This document shows, piece after piece, positions 38,592 to 52,025 of a stretch of 64,000 nt of DNA. The stretch spans positions 124,001 through 188,000 of the forward strand of contig JAGBEO010000003.1 of assembly GCA_017936885.1 (NCBI GenBank), given 5' to 3'. This DNA is from Lachnospiraceae bacterium. GTDB taxonomy: Bacteria; Bacillota; Clostridia; Lachnospirales; Lachnospiraceae. Every line of letters begins with the position of its first letter. The first letter of the stretch is position 1. A program made the translations under genes and the position numbers. A model generated the notes under the pieces. It worked only from the letters and a program-made list of their open reading frames with translations. It was not told where the DNA came from and searched no databases.

Positions 38592-45995
<7,404 letters not shown>

Positions 45996-46005
45996 AAATA
46001 TGAGC

Positions 46006-46060
46006 AAGGAGCTGTTGCAAAAGCAGATTAGTAATCTGCCGGAGCAATGGCTCCTTTTTT
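46006..46060 (+). terminator. Terminator of the GH53 gene
   Basis: AAGGAGC-TTGC pairs with GCAA-GCTCCTT around an inner GCAGATTAGTAATCTGC hairpin; a T run follows. Confidence 0.88.
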
Positions 46061-46113
46061 GTGTCATTGAGTCTGAAAAGCTATTTTTAATATCACATTT
46101 TGTTGTTATGCTA

Positions 46114-46143
46114 TTGCCGAAATAATAGGGGGGGGGGTATAAT
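46114..46143 (+). promoter_or_regulatory. Promoter with a G10 tract in the spacer
   Basis: TTGCCG (46114-46119) and a perfect TATAAT (46138-46143) are 18 bases apart, and the last ten spacer bases are all G (46128-46137). Slippage by one base would give 17 or 19 base spacing and change promoter strength. Confidence 0.75.
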
Positions 46144-46192
46144 AAAATTGGTTTTTTTTAGTAATACACAATATATGTAGAAGGGAGATTAA

Positions 46193-46555
46193 ATGAAACA
46201 AAAGATGCTGAAAATCATCATTGTGATTGCAATCATCCTTGTGCTGATGCTGGCAGGATGGTATGTGATGTTTTCTTATTTAGGCATTGGACCGGCTTTT
46301 CCGTTTCTTCCGGAGCAGGAGATTGATATGGAGAGTGTCGAGATGGGAAAATTGGCGGAAGATCAATTGATGGCATTGGTGGAAACCGAAGACGGGGCTG
46401 AGGAAATCGCAGAGCAGTATGGTATTGAACTGGTTTCTTTTGCAGACGGCGTGGCAACCTACAGAACGCAGGAAGATCCGAATGAAGTGATTGTAAGAGG
46501 ACAGGAAAACGGATATCCGCAGCTTTATCTGAATTATGTTCGGACAATTGATTAA
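46193..46555 (+). CDS. Membrane-anchored protein resembling a free subtilisin prodomain
   Basis: 120 residues. A single hydrophobic helix at 7-29 without clear cleavage site is followed by a short linker and a 55-residue domain (66-120). That domain is similar to the prodomain of the subtilase encoded next door: AEEIAEQYGIEL, a GV-T strand and PQLYLNYVRTI here correspond to AETIAEAYHAEL, GVVT and PAVYPNYYRYI there. Prodomains of this I9-like kind act as folding helpers and inhibitors. Hence a membrane-held inhibitor or chaperone for the protease is likely (inference). Start follows AAGGGAGA; 63 bases separate it from the protease gene, with no terminator or promoter between. Confidence 0.75.
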   Translation: MKQKMLKIIIVIAIILVLMLAGWYVMFSYLGIGPAFPFLPEQEIDMESVEMGKLAEDQLMALVETEDGAEEIAEQYGIELVSFADGVATYRTQEDPNEVIVRGQENGYPQLYLNYVRTID

Positions 46556-46618
46556 GCAACAGAGTTCACAATAGTTACATTCATTAGTGAATAATAATAA
46601 AGAAAGATGAGGAGAGAG

Positions 46619-49600
46619 ATGAGTACAACGAGAAAAGTAAGGAATGCTGTGTTATCACTGCTGTTATCCGCGGCTTTGATTGCGGAACCGACGGTTGGTT
46701 CTGCTGTTGCATATGCTGCAGAGCCTGTTGACGGACAGCGTGTAAGTTTCAGTGTGACAGAGGATGAGCAGGACGGTTCCGGTGAATCAGGAAGCAAAGA
46801 AGGCGGTTCCAGTGAGTCAGGGAAAGAAGAAGGCGGTTCCAGCGAGTCAGGGAAAGAAGAAGGCGGTTCCGGTGAGTCAGGGAAAGAAGAAGGCGGTTCC
46901 GGTGAGTCAGGGAAGGAAGAAGGCGGTTCCGGTGAGTCGGGGAGCGAAGAAGGCGGTTCCGGCGAGTCAGGGAGCGAAGAAGATGGCTCTGGTGAATCAG
47001 GAAATGAGCAGGATGGTTCCGATGAGTCAGGAAGTGAAGAGGACGGTTCAGAAACAGAGGAAGATGATGAACTGAATCAGGAAGAAGAGAATCCGGAAAC
47101 AGAGGAAGAATCTGAAGAAGTGGATGAACTTGAAGAGGAAAAGACAGAGAAAGAAACAGAGGATGAAGAAGAGGAGAAGTTAGAAGGCTTTTCTTCCATG
47201 CCCTCCGGTTATAAGCTCTCATCTGAACAGAAGGAACTGAAAGCGGACCTGGCTGCAAGTATGAGTTCTTTTGATGAAGACGGAGAAGGTTCTCTTTATG
47301 TTGAGAGAGAAGTATTTGCTTTTGCAGATTCAAGAGAGGAAGCGGAAACGATTGCAGAAGCTTATCACGCAGAATTGATTGAGTATGATCTGGGTGTTGT
47401 TACTATGAAGCTGACAGAGGGGACTTCTGTCGGTAAAGCATTACGGGTGGCAGCATCTGCGGATAACAATCTGCCTGCTGTCTATCCGAATTATTACCGT
47501 TATATTACTACGGAATCGGAGTTAGAGGAAAGCAGCAGTGATTCTGATTCCCAGATAGAGATTGTGGAAGAAGAATATGACACGGCAGCAGATGAAGAGT
47601 TGGGAAGTGAAGAAGGGGATGTATTATCTCCGGAAGCTTATGAGTATGCGGTGGAGGCATACAGTGATCCTTATTTGTCCCCCGGAAGCAGTATGTATCA
47701 GTGGCAGCATGTTAATGTCGGTTCCGTCTATGCGTGGAATGCAGGATATACCGGAAGCGGTGTTAAGGTGGCAGTGCTGGACAGCGGTGTGACTCCGATG
47801 TCAAATGAGCTGACACTTGCCGGAAATGCAAATGCAATCAGTCCTTCCAGTGCGGCAACAGACGGCAACGGACATGGAACACATGTGGCAGGTATTATCG
47901 GTGCGAAAACCAACTCGATCGGCGGTGCAGGTATTGCGCCGAATGCGAGCATTTATAATGTTAAGGTAATGAGTGATGACGGTTCTGGTACGGATGATGA
48001 TATCTTAAGAGGTATTCAACAAGCCATTGACTGGAAAGTAAATGTAATTAACATGAGTTTAGGCGGTGTTGGATACAGTACGGCTTTCCAGAATAAAATT
48101 AATCAGGCATATAAGAACGGAATAGCTGTTTTTGCTGCTGCAGGCAATGACGGCGGCAGTAATATGCATTATCCCGCAGCGTATGATCATGTAATCAGTA
48201 TTGGTGCGGTAGATAATAATAATGAGAGAGCATCTTTTTCAAATTATGGAGCATGGGTGGATCTGAGTGCGCCGGGTGTTAATATCTGGTCTACCGGAAC
48301 CAGTGGAACTTCTTATGTGAGTATGAGCGGAACCTCCATGGCATGTCCGGTTGCCGCAGGTGAAGCAGCGGTTATTTTGTCTGCAAATCTGTCAGCAATC
48401 AAAGGGAAATCCGGCGGTGCCAAAGTGGATGCTTTGGAAAACTTTATGAAGGCAAATGCGGTTAATGCCGGTTCCGGTATGGGCAGAGGCGTTACCAGCC
48501 TGACGAAGGCATTTAATATCAGTGTAGCATCAGCAAAGCCGGCGGCACCGAATATTATAGCATCGGTTGCAAAGAATGCACAGAGTGTATCGGTTAAGAT
48601 CACGGCGGCAGCAGGAACAACGATTTACTATACGACAGACGGTAAGGCACCTACTTATAAAGATGGTGTTGCAGGAGCTAATACCTTGCGGTATACGGGA
48701 ACTGTTATGATAGCAGATGTGCAGAAGGGAACAGTACAGGCAATTGCAGTCAATGCAAGCGGTGTATCCAGTGCGGTGAAAAAAGTCAGCTTTACCTTAA
48801 AACCGTATGTGTCAAGTATTGAGATTTCCGGCGTGTCCCAGGTTGTGAAAGGGAAATCCTCCCAGTTAACCGCGACAGTATTGCCGACTTATGCAACAAA
48901 TAAGAAGATAACATGGAGTATAAAAAAGAGTAATGGAAGTAAGGTTGAAAAGGCAGATGGCGTAACCGTTAGTACCAATGGTAAAGTGACTGCGACTAAG
49001 ACAGCAAAAGCAGGAACTTATACTGTAACGGCAAAGGCACAGGATGCTTCCGGTAAAACGGCTACATATACGATTACAATTATTGATTCGGTTAAGATAG
49101 CATCAGCGAAGTTTACCTCAACGAAATTGGATCTGGCAATACCGACCAATAAAACATATAATATGTCATCGATGCTTGATGCAAAGACAGTATCGGGTGC
49201 GAAGGCAGCGGTATCTGATTTTAAGTGGACGAGCAGCAATACTGCGATTGCAACCGTAGATGCCAAGGGTGTTGTAACACCGAAGGCACCGGGCAGTGTA
49301 ACGATTACTGCACTGGCGAATGATACAAGTAATAAGAAGGCAACCTGTAAACTGACAATTAAGCAGCTTGCAACCACGGTAACGATTACGGGAGATAACC
49401 AGGTTGCACGCGGTAAGAGACTCACCTTAAAGGCAACAGTAGATCCGACCAATGTAAGCAATAAAAAGGTTACATGGAGTATTACGAAAAGCAATGGAAG
49501 TCAGGTGTCAAAGACAGACGGCGTAACAATCAGCTCATCAGGTGTTGTGTCAGCTACAGCAAAAGCAACAACGGGAGCTTATAAAGTAACGGCAACAGCG

Positions 49601-50560
49601 GCAGATGGAAGTAAGTGCGCTGCTTCCAAGACGATTACGGTCAAAGGCGGTGTGATCAACTCTTTGACCTTTGATAAGAAGGCGGGTACTATTTACCGGA
49701 CGGCAGGTTCTTCTTCGGCACCTACCAAAATGACGATTAAGGCGACCCTGAAAGGAACCAGCGGATTTGCAGGCAATGCCTATACGTGTACAAGCAGTAA
49801 TGAGGGTATTGCTACCGCATCGGCAACAGGAACAAACGGTACGGTAACGATTACAGTAAAGGCAACAGGCAAAGCCACCGGCAAGACAACGATTACGCTT
49901 GCATCTACCGATGGAAGCAATAAGAAGGCGACATGTACAGTTACGGTAAATAATCCGGTATCCAAAATAAATATTGCCCCTACAGCCGGCAATAACAACT
50001 ATGTTGCGAAAGGAAAGACTTTAGCGCTGAAAGCAACATTAGAGACAGAATACGGTGCAGTTTCCAATAAGAATGTGACATGGAATATATACGACAGCAA
50101 TGGAAAAGAAGCAACTGCCAAGTCTCATGGCGTGTCCATTAATGCCAGCGGTACGGTAAATGTAACGAAGACTGCTAAGTTAGGTACTTACAAGGTGAAA
50201 GCAACTGCTAAGGACGGAAGTGGTGCTAATGCTTCATATAGTATTAAAGTCACAGAGGGTGTTGAGGAAATATTTGTATTATATAAGGGATATCCATTAA
50301 CTACAAAAGGGACGAATACCATGAAGCAGTATTGGACGGCTTACTTCCCGATTTCATGGGAATCATCCAATGGCAGTTATTCCGGTTCTTTTGCGGTTTC
50401 ATCCTCTAATCCTAAAGTGATGTCAGGATCGATCGTATATTCGAACGGTTATCCATATCTTTTGGTTTCTGCAGATAATCCAGGAACTGCAACTATTACA
50501 CTTAAGGCGATGGATGGCAGCGGTAAACAGGTGAAATATAAGTTTAGGGTATATAAGTAG
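46619..50560 (+). CDS. Secreted S8 subtilisin-like protease with Ig-like repeats
   Basis: 1313 residues. Signal peptide with AYA cleavage region near 37; a Gly/Ser/Glu repeat (about 53-142) and acidic stretch to 195; I9-like prodomain about 236-296; peptidase S8 domain with Asp388 (AVLDSGV), His419 (GNGHGTHVAG) and Ser573 (GTSMACP); a chitobiase-type beta domain (TTIYYTTDGKAPT); then about six bacterial Ig-like (Big_2) domains to the C-terminus. No LPxTG. Start ATG 46619 is preferred because GAGGAG lies just before it; the ATG at 46607 is upstream of that site. Likely processes surface or host proteins. Co-transcribed with the prodomain-like gene. Confidence 0.9.
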   Translation: MSTTRKVRNAVLSLLLSAALIAEPTVGSAVAYAAEPVDGQRVSFSVTEDEQDGSGESGSKEGGSSESGKEEGGSSESGKEEGGSGESGKEEGGSGESGKEEGGSGESGSEEGGSGESGSEEDGSGESGNEQDGSDESGSEEDGSETEEDDELNQEEENPETEEESEEVDELEEEKTEKETEDEEEEKLEGFSSMPSGYKLSSEQKELKADLAASMSSFDEDGEGSLYVEREVFAFADSREEAETIAEAYHAELIEYDLGVVTMKLTEGTSVGKALRVAASADNNLPAVYPNYYRYITTESELEESSSDSDSQIEIVEEEYDTAADEELGSEEGDVLSPEAYEYAVEAYSDPYLSPGSSMYQWQHVNVGSVYAWNAGYTGSGVKVAVLDSGVTPMSNELTLAGNANAISPSSAATDGNGHGTHVAGIIGAKTNSIGGAGIAPNASIYNVKVMSDDGSGTDDDILRGIQQAIDWKVNVINMSLGGVGYSTAFQNKINQAYKNGIAVFAAAGNDGGSNMHYPAAYDHVISIGAVDNNNERASFSNYGAWVDLSAPGVNIWSTGTSGTSYVSMSGTSMACPVAAGEAAVILSANLSAIKGKSGGAKVDALENFMKANAVNAGSGMGRGVTSLTKAFNISVASAKPAAPNIIASVAKNAQSVSVKITAAAGTTIYYTTDGKAPTYKDGVAGANTLRYTGTVMIADVQKGTVQAIAVNASGVSSAVKKVSFTLKPYVSSIEISGVSQVVKGKSSQLTATVLPTYATNKKITWSIKKSNGSKVEKADGVTVSTNGKVTATKTAKAGTYTVTAKAQDASGKTATYTITIIDSVKIASAKFTSTKLDLAIPTNKTYNMSSMLDAKTVSGAKAAVSDFKWTSSNTAIATVDAKGVVTPKAPGSVTITALANDTSNKKATCKLTIKQLATTVTITGDNQVARGKRLTLKATVDPTNVSNKKVTWSITKSNGSQVSKTDGVTISSSGVVSATAKATTGAYKVTATAADGSKCAASKTITVKGGVINSLTFDKKAGTIYRTAGSSSAPTKMTIKATLKGTSGFAGNAYTCTSSNEGIATASATGTNGTVTITVKATGKATGKTTITLASTDGSNKKATCTVTVNNPVSKINIAPTAGNNNYVAKGKTLALKATLETEYGAVSNKNVTWNIYDSNGKEATAKSHGVSINASGTVNVTKTAKLGTYKVKATAKDGSGANASYSIKVTEGVEEIFVLYKGYPLTTKGTNTMKQYWTAYFPISWESSNGSYSGSFAVSSSNPKVMSGSIVYSNGYPYLLVSADNPGTATITLKAMDGSGKQVKYKFRVYK
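46775..47044 (+). repeat. 30-bp tandem repeat in the subtilase gene
   Basis: About nine copies of a 30-bp unit encoding GSGESGKEEG-like decapeptides; the middle copies are almost identical at DNA level, the last ones diverged. In-frame copy changes would alter length of the stalk between signal peptide and prodomain. Confidence 0.92.
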
Positions 50561-50579
50561 TTTGCACTACATAGCACAG

Positions 50580-50621
50580 AAAGCAGGACTTACTTGGGAA
50601 TCCAAATAAGTCCCGCTTTTT
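50580..50621 (+). terminator. Terminator of the subtilase gene
   Basis: AAAGC-GGACTTA-TTGG pairs with CCAA-TAAGTCC-GCTTT and is followed by T. Confidence 0.9.
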
Positions 50622-50658
50622 TATTTCCATTAAAATTCTTAATTTTCCCTTATCCAAG

Positions 50659-50687
50659 TGTACACTATCTTCATTTTCGGGTATAAT
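50659..50687 (+). promoter_or_regulatory. Promoter of the DUF3048 gene
   Basis: TGTACA and TATAAT with 17-base spacing, 85 bases before the ATG. Confidence 0.55.
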
Positions 50688-50771
50688 AAAAACATTCATG
50701 GTGTAAAAATTATATATATGGCAAAATAAAATCACAGCCCAAAGTACAAACAGTGCAGAAAAGAGGTACCA

Positions 50772-52025
50772 ATGTTTCAAAAGAAAGCAGCTTTACTCAC
50801 AGCAACCATATTAACGATAACAACCTGTCTGACAGCCTGCGGGAAGGAACGTGAACCTCTGCCGGAACCACAGGTAGACGAAGTACAGGAGGAAGAGGAA
50901 ATAGAGACAGAGCCGGAAGAAGAGCCGGTGGAGGAAGAAGAACTAACCACAGCCTACCCGGTGATCGAAGAACGGGAAGAAGTAAACGGTGAGATCCAAA
51001 GCTTCCTGACCGGAGAATGGACAAGCGTTGAACAGGCCAAGAGAAGACCTATCGCCGTCATGATTCCCAATAACGCCCCGGCTATGCCCCAGTACGGCTT
51101 ATCGCAGGCGGGTATTATTTACGAAGCTCCGGTGGAAGGCCGTATTACCAGATTGATGGCAGTATTCGAGAATTTTGATGAATTGGATAGGATTGGCCCG
51201 GTCAGAAGCAGCAGGGACTATTATATATATATGGCGATGGGGTATGAAGCCATCTATTGCAACTGGGGACTTGCCAAGCCCTATGTAGAAGAATTGATTA
51301 ACAGGCCGAATTATTACAATATCAGTGCAGCGGTAGACGGTATTCATAATCCTGCGGATGAAGCCTTTAAGAGAGTCAGTCGGCCGGGTTATGCCCTGGA
51401 GTTTACCGGCTATCTGGATATTGAAGGCGTATTTAAGGCAGCGGAGCGTCTGGGTTATGACTGGAATTATGATGAGAATTATGTGCCTCCGTTCCTATTT
51501 GCAGCAGATGATGTAACGGCGGATTATGCGGATAACGATGCTGCTGCCCTCATTTATCCGGGTGGCAAGTCCGGTGGTAATTCCGGCGGCTACGGTTCAT
51601 ATCACCCTTATTTCGAATATCATGAGGATGATCATCTGTACTATCGTTATCAGGATGGTAAGGCGCAGATGGACGAATATAATAATGAGCAGCTTGCAGT
51701 AAGCAATGTGGTATTCCAATATTGTCATGGTGAGGTCAGAGATGACCACGATTATCTTGCATTCGGTGTACACGGTGAAGGCGATGCCATTGTCTTTACG
51801 AACGGTAAAGTAATCAAAGGCAAATGGATGCGTTATGACGGTGATTTTACACCGGCGAAATTCTTTGATGAAGAAGGAAATGAGATTATCTTTAACCAGG
51901 GTAAAACGTGGATATGTAATATCTGGCAGGAGTACGGTGAATATGTGGAGTATGGTACGGATTCCAATAATCTGACTACACCGGATGTGCCCTCTGTCAC
52001 CGGAAACGACAAAGAGGATACGTAA
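50772..52025 (+). CDS. DUF3048-domain lipoprotein (YerB-like)
   Basis: 417 residues. Lipoprotein signal with lipobox LTAC (Cys23), then a Glu/Pro-rich linker to about 80. The DUF3048 domain follows: RPIAVMIPNNAPAMPQYGL, IYEAPVEGRITRLMAVFE, and RIGPVRSSRDYYI; a C-terminal DUF3048_C part has YHGEV-like and DGDFTPAKFF segments. B. subtilis YerB is the named relative; its biochemical role is not settled. Faces the outside of the membrane. Between its own promoter and terminator. Confidence 0.9.
   Translation: MFQKKAALLTATILTITTCLTACGKEREPLPEPQVDEVQEEEEIETEPEEEPVEEEELTTAYPVIEEREEVNGEIQSFLTGEWTSVEQAKRRPIAVMIPNNAPAMPQYGLSQAGIIYEAPVEGRITRLMAVFENFDELDRIGPVRSSRDYYIYMAMGYEAIYCNWGLAKPYVEELINRPNYYNISAAVDGIHNPADEAFKRVSRPGYALEFTGYLDIEGVFKAAERLGYDWNYDENYVPPFLFAADDVTADYADNDAAALIYPGGKSGGNSGGYGSYHPYFEYHEDDHLYYRYQDGKAQMDEYNNEQLAVSNVVFQYCHGEVRDDHDYLAFGVHGEGDAIVFTNGKVIKGKWMRYDGDFTPAKFFDEEGNEIIFNQGKTWICNIWQEYGEYVEYGTDSNNLTTPDVPSVTGNDKEDT

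Follow-up and report, generated by a model that had tools for sequence, protein, structure and literature searches.

The 64-kb window, the whole stretch of 64,000 nucleotides analysed here, carries a run of ten G between the -35 and -10 elements of a promoter that precedes a secreted-protease locus. We consider, with a probability of about 0.85, that this is a contingency (phase-variable) promoter controlled by slippage, and that the G10 tract very probably makes it a switch of the Neisseria kind, turning on and off (or up and down in volume) at random. In the proposed mechanism, slipped-strand mispairing in replication would add a G to the tract or remove one, and the spacer would shift with it (17 nt for G9, 18 nt for G10 and 19 nt for G11). 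The altered spacer would change how housekeeping RNA polymerase uses a promoter composed of a weak TTGCCG and a perfect TATAAT, and cells within one clone would come to differ in a two-gene unit for a prodomain-like protein anchored in the membrane and a large secreted subtilase. For the assembled G10 state, with its 18-nt spacer, we predict a promoter that is on or nearly so. Phase variability, slippage in living cells, use of the promoter and an effect of tract length on expression are what we infer from a locus that, as known here from its sequence, is built like a porA-type promoter.

The promoter and the genes it precedes

All features of the locus lie on the plus strand. The -35-like hexamer TTGCCG (46114..46119) is weak, with four of six matches to TTGACA. 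It is followed by 8 nt read directly as AAATAATA, which fill the space between the end of the hexamer at 46119 and the beginning of the tract at 46128. The G10 homopolymer itself (46128..46137) occupies the 3′ part of the 18-nt spacer and abuts the -10 hexamer TATAAT (46138..46143), which matches in six of six positions. Hence the arrangement described in the earlier note, TTGCCG and an 18-base spacer ending in ten G before a perfect TATAAT, is exact, and the coordinates are confirmed. The same note regarded the tract as the only one of its kind in the 64 kb, and indeed no other run of at least seven G or C occurs in the window. On the plus strand, runs of 3, 4, 5, 6 and 10 G number 519, 82, 11, 3 and 1, respectively, and an order-3 Markov model estimated from the window predicts 0.0024 starts of G≥10 runs in 64 kb. 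Runs of about eight or more G are prone to slippage, and the tract is both long enough to slip and longer than chance would provide in the window.

In a promoter scan of positions 45900-50800, the TTGCCG/TATAAT pair ties for first among 15 sites, four of which have 10 of 12 matches. Since shuffled sequences also yield 8.5 +/- 2.7 such sites, the promoter call at the G10 tract rests on more than the scan. Upstream, a gene for a 2454-aa protein with a GH53 domain ends at 45995, ahead of the tract, and is followed by a terminator-like hairpin with a 5-bp stem and a T run (46041..46060), so that the G-tract promoter probably begins a new transcription unit; the hairpin scan found four terminator-like sites vs 3.5 in shuffles.

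The first gene downstream (46193..46555) encodes a 120-aa protein with a hydrophobic N-terminal segment. Its Pfam search returned no match, and a single comparison aligned 68 aa of its C-terminal part with the subtilase prodomain region at 31% identity (E 2e-7). The subtilase gene follows (46619..50560) and encodes a secreted protein with Peptidase_S8, Fn3_assoc and Big_2 repeats according to Pfam. Its start at 46619 was picked for the ribosome binding site, with the longest open reading frame beginning at 46607, and both this site and the signal peptide are by-eye readings. The prodomain similarity, together with the hydrophobic N-terminus, bears out the earlier proposal of a prodomain-like membrane protein, just as Peptidase_S8 and Big_2 bear out that of a large surface or secreted subtilase. 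We infer that the two genes form one unit. Within the subtilase coding region lies a 30-bp tandem repeat of 9.2 copies (46774..47049), possibly a second length-variable element whose copy number could vary.

The layout has two close relatives. In Neisseria meningitidis porA, 9-11 G likewise lie in the -35/-10 spacer before a surface-protein gene, and PMC3639595 gives expression as high with 11G, about 2-fold lower with 10G and 13-fold lower with 9G at the surface. As in porA-type promoters, the homopolymer in the window stands between a recognisable -35 and a -10, the -35 being weak, and the product behind it is a surface or secreted one, as judged from the hydrophobic N-terminus of the first gene, Peptidase_S8 with Big_2 and the by-eye signal peptide of the subtilase. 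Unlike porA, the locus belongs to a Gram-positive gut anaerobe, encodes a secreted protease instead of a porin and has its tract abutting a perfect TATAAT; its length effect is predicted, that of porA measured. In Treponema pallidum tp0126, too, poly-G lies between -35 and -10, with expression best at 17 nt (PMC7864442), whereas the lineage and the genes of the tp0126 and tpr promoters are unrelated to ours. The same paper reports that tprL tract lengths vary within Treponema isolates and that the tprL tract spans part of the -10, which is said there to rule out a porA-like spacing mechanism.

Recurrence of the tract-TATAAT junction in relatives

If the tract is a functional part of the promoter, its history in related genomes is informative. 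A search of genome contigs with the 120-aa protein led to three loci; when the own genome was searched together with 40 relatives, 10 matches came from 9 genomes, counting the window. The promoter comparison leaves out four weaker partial matches (L015-L018) and the promoter of a second copy in L007, where the promoter compared has a few ambiguous bases. Among the nine full-length orthologs including the window, the four closest have a tract and five have none. The closest ortholog found (L006/G057, 84% identical protein) reads TTGCAA, 18 nt ending in G9, TATAAT; both promoters hence consist of TTGC.., 18 nt and TATAAT, an extra flank base offsetting the lost G. In the 100 nt leading up to the tract, it matches the window at 59 of 107 alignment columns, scoring level with the best of 200 shuffles, vs 77 of 91 columns at the neighbouring upstream coding end, and the 35-60 nt after TATAAT give no useful alignment. 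With flanks this diverged beside a conserved coding end, the tract-TATAAT junction outlives its flanks. A second ortholog (L079/G015, 62%), which also retains the tract while its flanks diverge from those of the window, has G13-TGA-TATAAT adjoining an N run whose far side ends in G15-A. In the ortholog of G017 (64%), a G10 lies upstream of the -35 and not in the spacer. The five more distant orthologs (51-57%; L007, L008, L011, L012 and L014) lack a tract and have a -10 such as TGTGCTATTAT. As such, the tract seems to belong to the nearer relatives. Tract lengths at the orthologous promoters are G9, G10 and G13 and, with one genome per species, represent differences between species only.

The junction is also found at other promoters of the genus. 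A search for G7 N0-4 TATAAT in 77 genus genomes returned 102 raw hits, which correspond to 50 distinct places in 31 of them; the reversed-pattern control returned 13 raw hits in 9 genomes. Forty-five of the 50 places were examined, window included (those left out are in G062, G007, G081:C17, G014 and G010:C33), and 44 were scored for a -35, one being skipped for Ns upstream. Strong, TTGACA-like hexamers (score >5.5) precede 22 of the 44 sites vs 3.7% of shuffles, and scores >4 are reached by 30 of 44 vs 14.5% of mononucleotide shuffles, leaving 14 without; many sites are mutual orthologs, which makes these counts non-independent. Where a -35 is recognisable, the spacer measures 14 nt (2 sites), 15 (1), 16 (9), 18 (4), 19 (13) or 21 (1). 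The optimal 17-nt spacer occurs at none of these 30 sites, an absence that a simple spacing model would not predict.

Proteins encoded downstream of such sites often begin with a hydrophobic N-terminus (36 of 56 vs 57 of 175 background frames; Fisher 4e-5, orthologs not removed), where the 56 sites comprise 45 from the genus and 11 from other genera and the background consists of mechanically called frames from the window and tract-bearing loci. A Pfam search of ten downstream proteins returned a BspA-like LRR, a solute-binding, a TadZ-like, a T2SSF, a GntR regulator and a FIVAR domain match, one each, and left four unmatched; five of the ten, large or small, begin with signal-peptide-like sequence and are annotated sparsely or not at all in Pfam. 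At L095, L098, L106, L114 and L182, the G-TATAAT place is within an open reading frame or has no gene close to it. At another locus (L092 3035-5050, G071:C13), three tandem paralogous genes for small secreted proteins each have their own G10- or G11-TATAAT promoter.

Outside the genus the layout is rarer. Exact G9 followed by TATAAT occurs in 15 of 77 genus genomes vs 9 of 394 genomes of other genera in the family (Fisher 2e-7). The family draw comprised 397 genomes, three of them genus members without the exact G9 form (the window has G10), and the control pattern was found in none of the family genomes drawn. Eight of the 11 other-genus places have a -35 score of at least 6.6 and most precede signal-peptide or lipoprotein-like genes; L182, mentioned above, is an other-genus place within a long open reading frame. 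Altogether, the earlier suggestion of a porA-type phase-variation tract is supported by comparison, namely by the position of the tract, its recurrence at the same promoter as G9, G10 and G13, and a genus-wide class of similar sites, often before secreted-protein genes.

G tracts throughout the genus

Across its 3.57 Mb in 36 contigs, the own genome contains two G≥9 tracts vs about 0.7 expected from the window composition, a number that is unremarkable, and the case is therefore carried by the position of the tract and its recurrence in relatives. The other tract, a G11 at G000:C10:28423-28433 (L002, minus strand), has a promoter-like layout of TTGATA and TATTTC separated by 18 nt, the last 11 of them G. 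It lies 326 nt upstream of a same-strand 324-aa open reading frame with, by eye, the look of a nuclease or transposase family, and is possibly a second, weaker switch. A plasmid collection searched with window positions 44000-50000 gave no match.

Many relatives are far richer in such tracts. The 77 genus genomes contain 1490 G≥9 tracts, with at least one in 73 genomes, a median of 14 and up to 87 per genome. The median is 18 in the 39 genus genomes with a completeness of 90% or more and a contamination of 5% or less, vs 1 in 118 other-genus genomes filtered by completeness alone. Loss of MutS as the cause of the excess is ruled out, given that a MutS_I domain is present in the own genome and in 74 of the 77 genus genomes; the three without a match are 66-68% complete.

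Contingency loci of the Campylobacter type are of the frameshift kind, with poly-G inside coding sequence. The window tract differs from these in being of the promoter type, whereas other genomes of the genus resemble them: at loci between L119 and L178, genes of the glycan type, methyltransferase and acyltransferase genes among them, contain G9-12, and a shifted-frame stop often comes just past the tract. In a sample of 80 tracts from eight genomes, chosen blind to context from the top of the tract list (G041 contributing one cluster only), 31 were coding and 34 non-coding after removal of tracts with Ns, odd lengths or unclear status. The upstream frame is clear for 30 coding tracts; it remains open for at least 60 codons in 17 of them, and in six only another frame does, as would be expected for genes assembled in an off state. 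Pfam searches of 17 of 24 tract-bearing frames matched six methyltransferases (two FkbM), two acyltransferases, and one each of hexapeptide transferase, WcbI-like, sugar-transfer ATP-grasp, CotH, citrate-lyase-ligase-like and weak AMP-binding (below the cut-off) proteins, with three unmatched. The base after the tract is T in 25 of 31 coding tracts vs 73 of 449 coding runs of 4-6 G, and a stop in some frame follows within two codons in 19 of 30 vs 102 of 449; adjacent stop codons may account for part of the T excess. T follows 39% of the tracts in nine high-tract genomes, a group chosen by eye, vs 71% in the rest of the genus. These nine (G005, G010, G012, G014, G019, G020, G087, G088 and G090) hold 33-87 G≥9 tracts each. 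A further arrangement is found at three flagellin genes (L126, L142 and L173 in G042, G016 and G015), where G10-TAAAATG places the tract 4 nt before the start codon, a position from which a -10 or ribosome binding could be affected.

In the fetched loci, which were selected around tracts, six of eight distinct N runs lie within 80 nt of a tract, and exact lengths in the draft genomes are therefore unsure. Because some are bordered left and right by the same flank, the runs resemble scaffold gaps; masked stretches also give N, and the two are not distinguishable run by run. Only one run (L155 1248-1610, G002:C84) shows a full tract at either end within matching flanks, G11 on the left and G10 on the right, which hints at a trace of mixed tract lengths in the sample, with sequencing error being possible.

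Alternative readings and significance

A homopolymer could arise by chance or through assembly and have no role. The own-genome count of two against 0.7 expected, and draft lengths made unsure by the N runs, would sit well with this reading. The reading is countered by the recurrence of the junction of tract and TATAAT at one promoter across genomes assembled independently, and by the genus-wide excess over the reversed-pattern control; on these ortholog and genus data we reject it. A different view accepts a real promoter and takes its spacer as static, poly-G stiffening or reshaping the DNA beside the -10, or mattering as sequence, with a length that barely changes or has little effect in vivo. 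The window and its closest ortholog share an 18-nt spacer, as though length were held, and MutS is present. Against this stand the differing tract lengths of the orthologs (9, 10 and 13) and the slippage of 9-11 G runs in other bacteria, as described in PMC3639595 and PMC7864442; moreover, a static spacer leaves the frame-breaking coding tracts of the genus unexplained. We consider it unlikely.

Still less probable, in our judgement, is that the tract acts without changing the spacing seen by sigma factor, for instance as a regulator or structure-forming site, a role discussed for poly-G in Treponema tprL and Neisseria opc in PMC7864442. Such a site would agree with the G017 tract upstream of its -35, with G9-10-TATAAT lacking a good -35 at L081, L091, L102 and L104 (the L081 gene being the GntR regulator in Pfam) and with a genus set devoid of 17-nt spacers, yet genus sites are strongly enriched in -35 hexamers at 14-21 nt, and the window has one. 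The slippage-controlled promoter is hence the reading we prefer, and the points against it are tract lengths that differ here between species only, the own-genome count of two G≥9 tracts, the five orthologs without a tract, the G017 tract outside the spacer, the 14 of 44 genus sites without a -35 above 4, the G-TATAAT places inside frames or far from genes, and the lack of 17-nt spacers.

The best-known cases of phase variation by slippage come from Gram-negative bacteria adapted to a host and from spirochaetes. For Lachnospiraceae, we found no report of poly-G phase variation in the open-licence literature searched by titles and abstract starts (family, Roseburia, Clostridia, porA and wider). 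The single locus joins the known porA-type promoters; a genus-wide phasome would be the more interesting result. We think it probable that a whole Lachnospiraceae genus has a poly-G phasome on the scale of Campylobacter or Neisseria, with the window promoter as an outlying member. Its three designs would be G9-11 fused to TATAAT in promoters of secreted-protein genes, G10 lying 4 nt ahead of flagellin start codons, and G10 in surface-glycan genes with a shifted-frame stop codon beside the tract. Given its uniformity, the promoter layout lends itself to direct searches and tests. In summary, the sequence evidence points to a slippage device, at scale, in gut Clostridia. If this is true, secreted proteases and other secreted proteins, flagellins and surface glycans would vary among the cells of one clone, which would affect strain tracking, immune recognition and where draft assemblies break.
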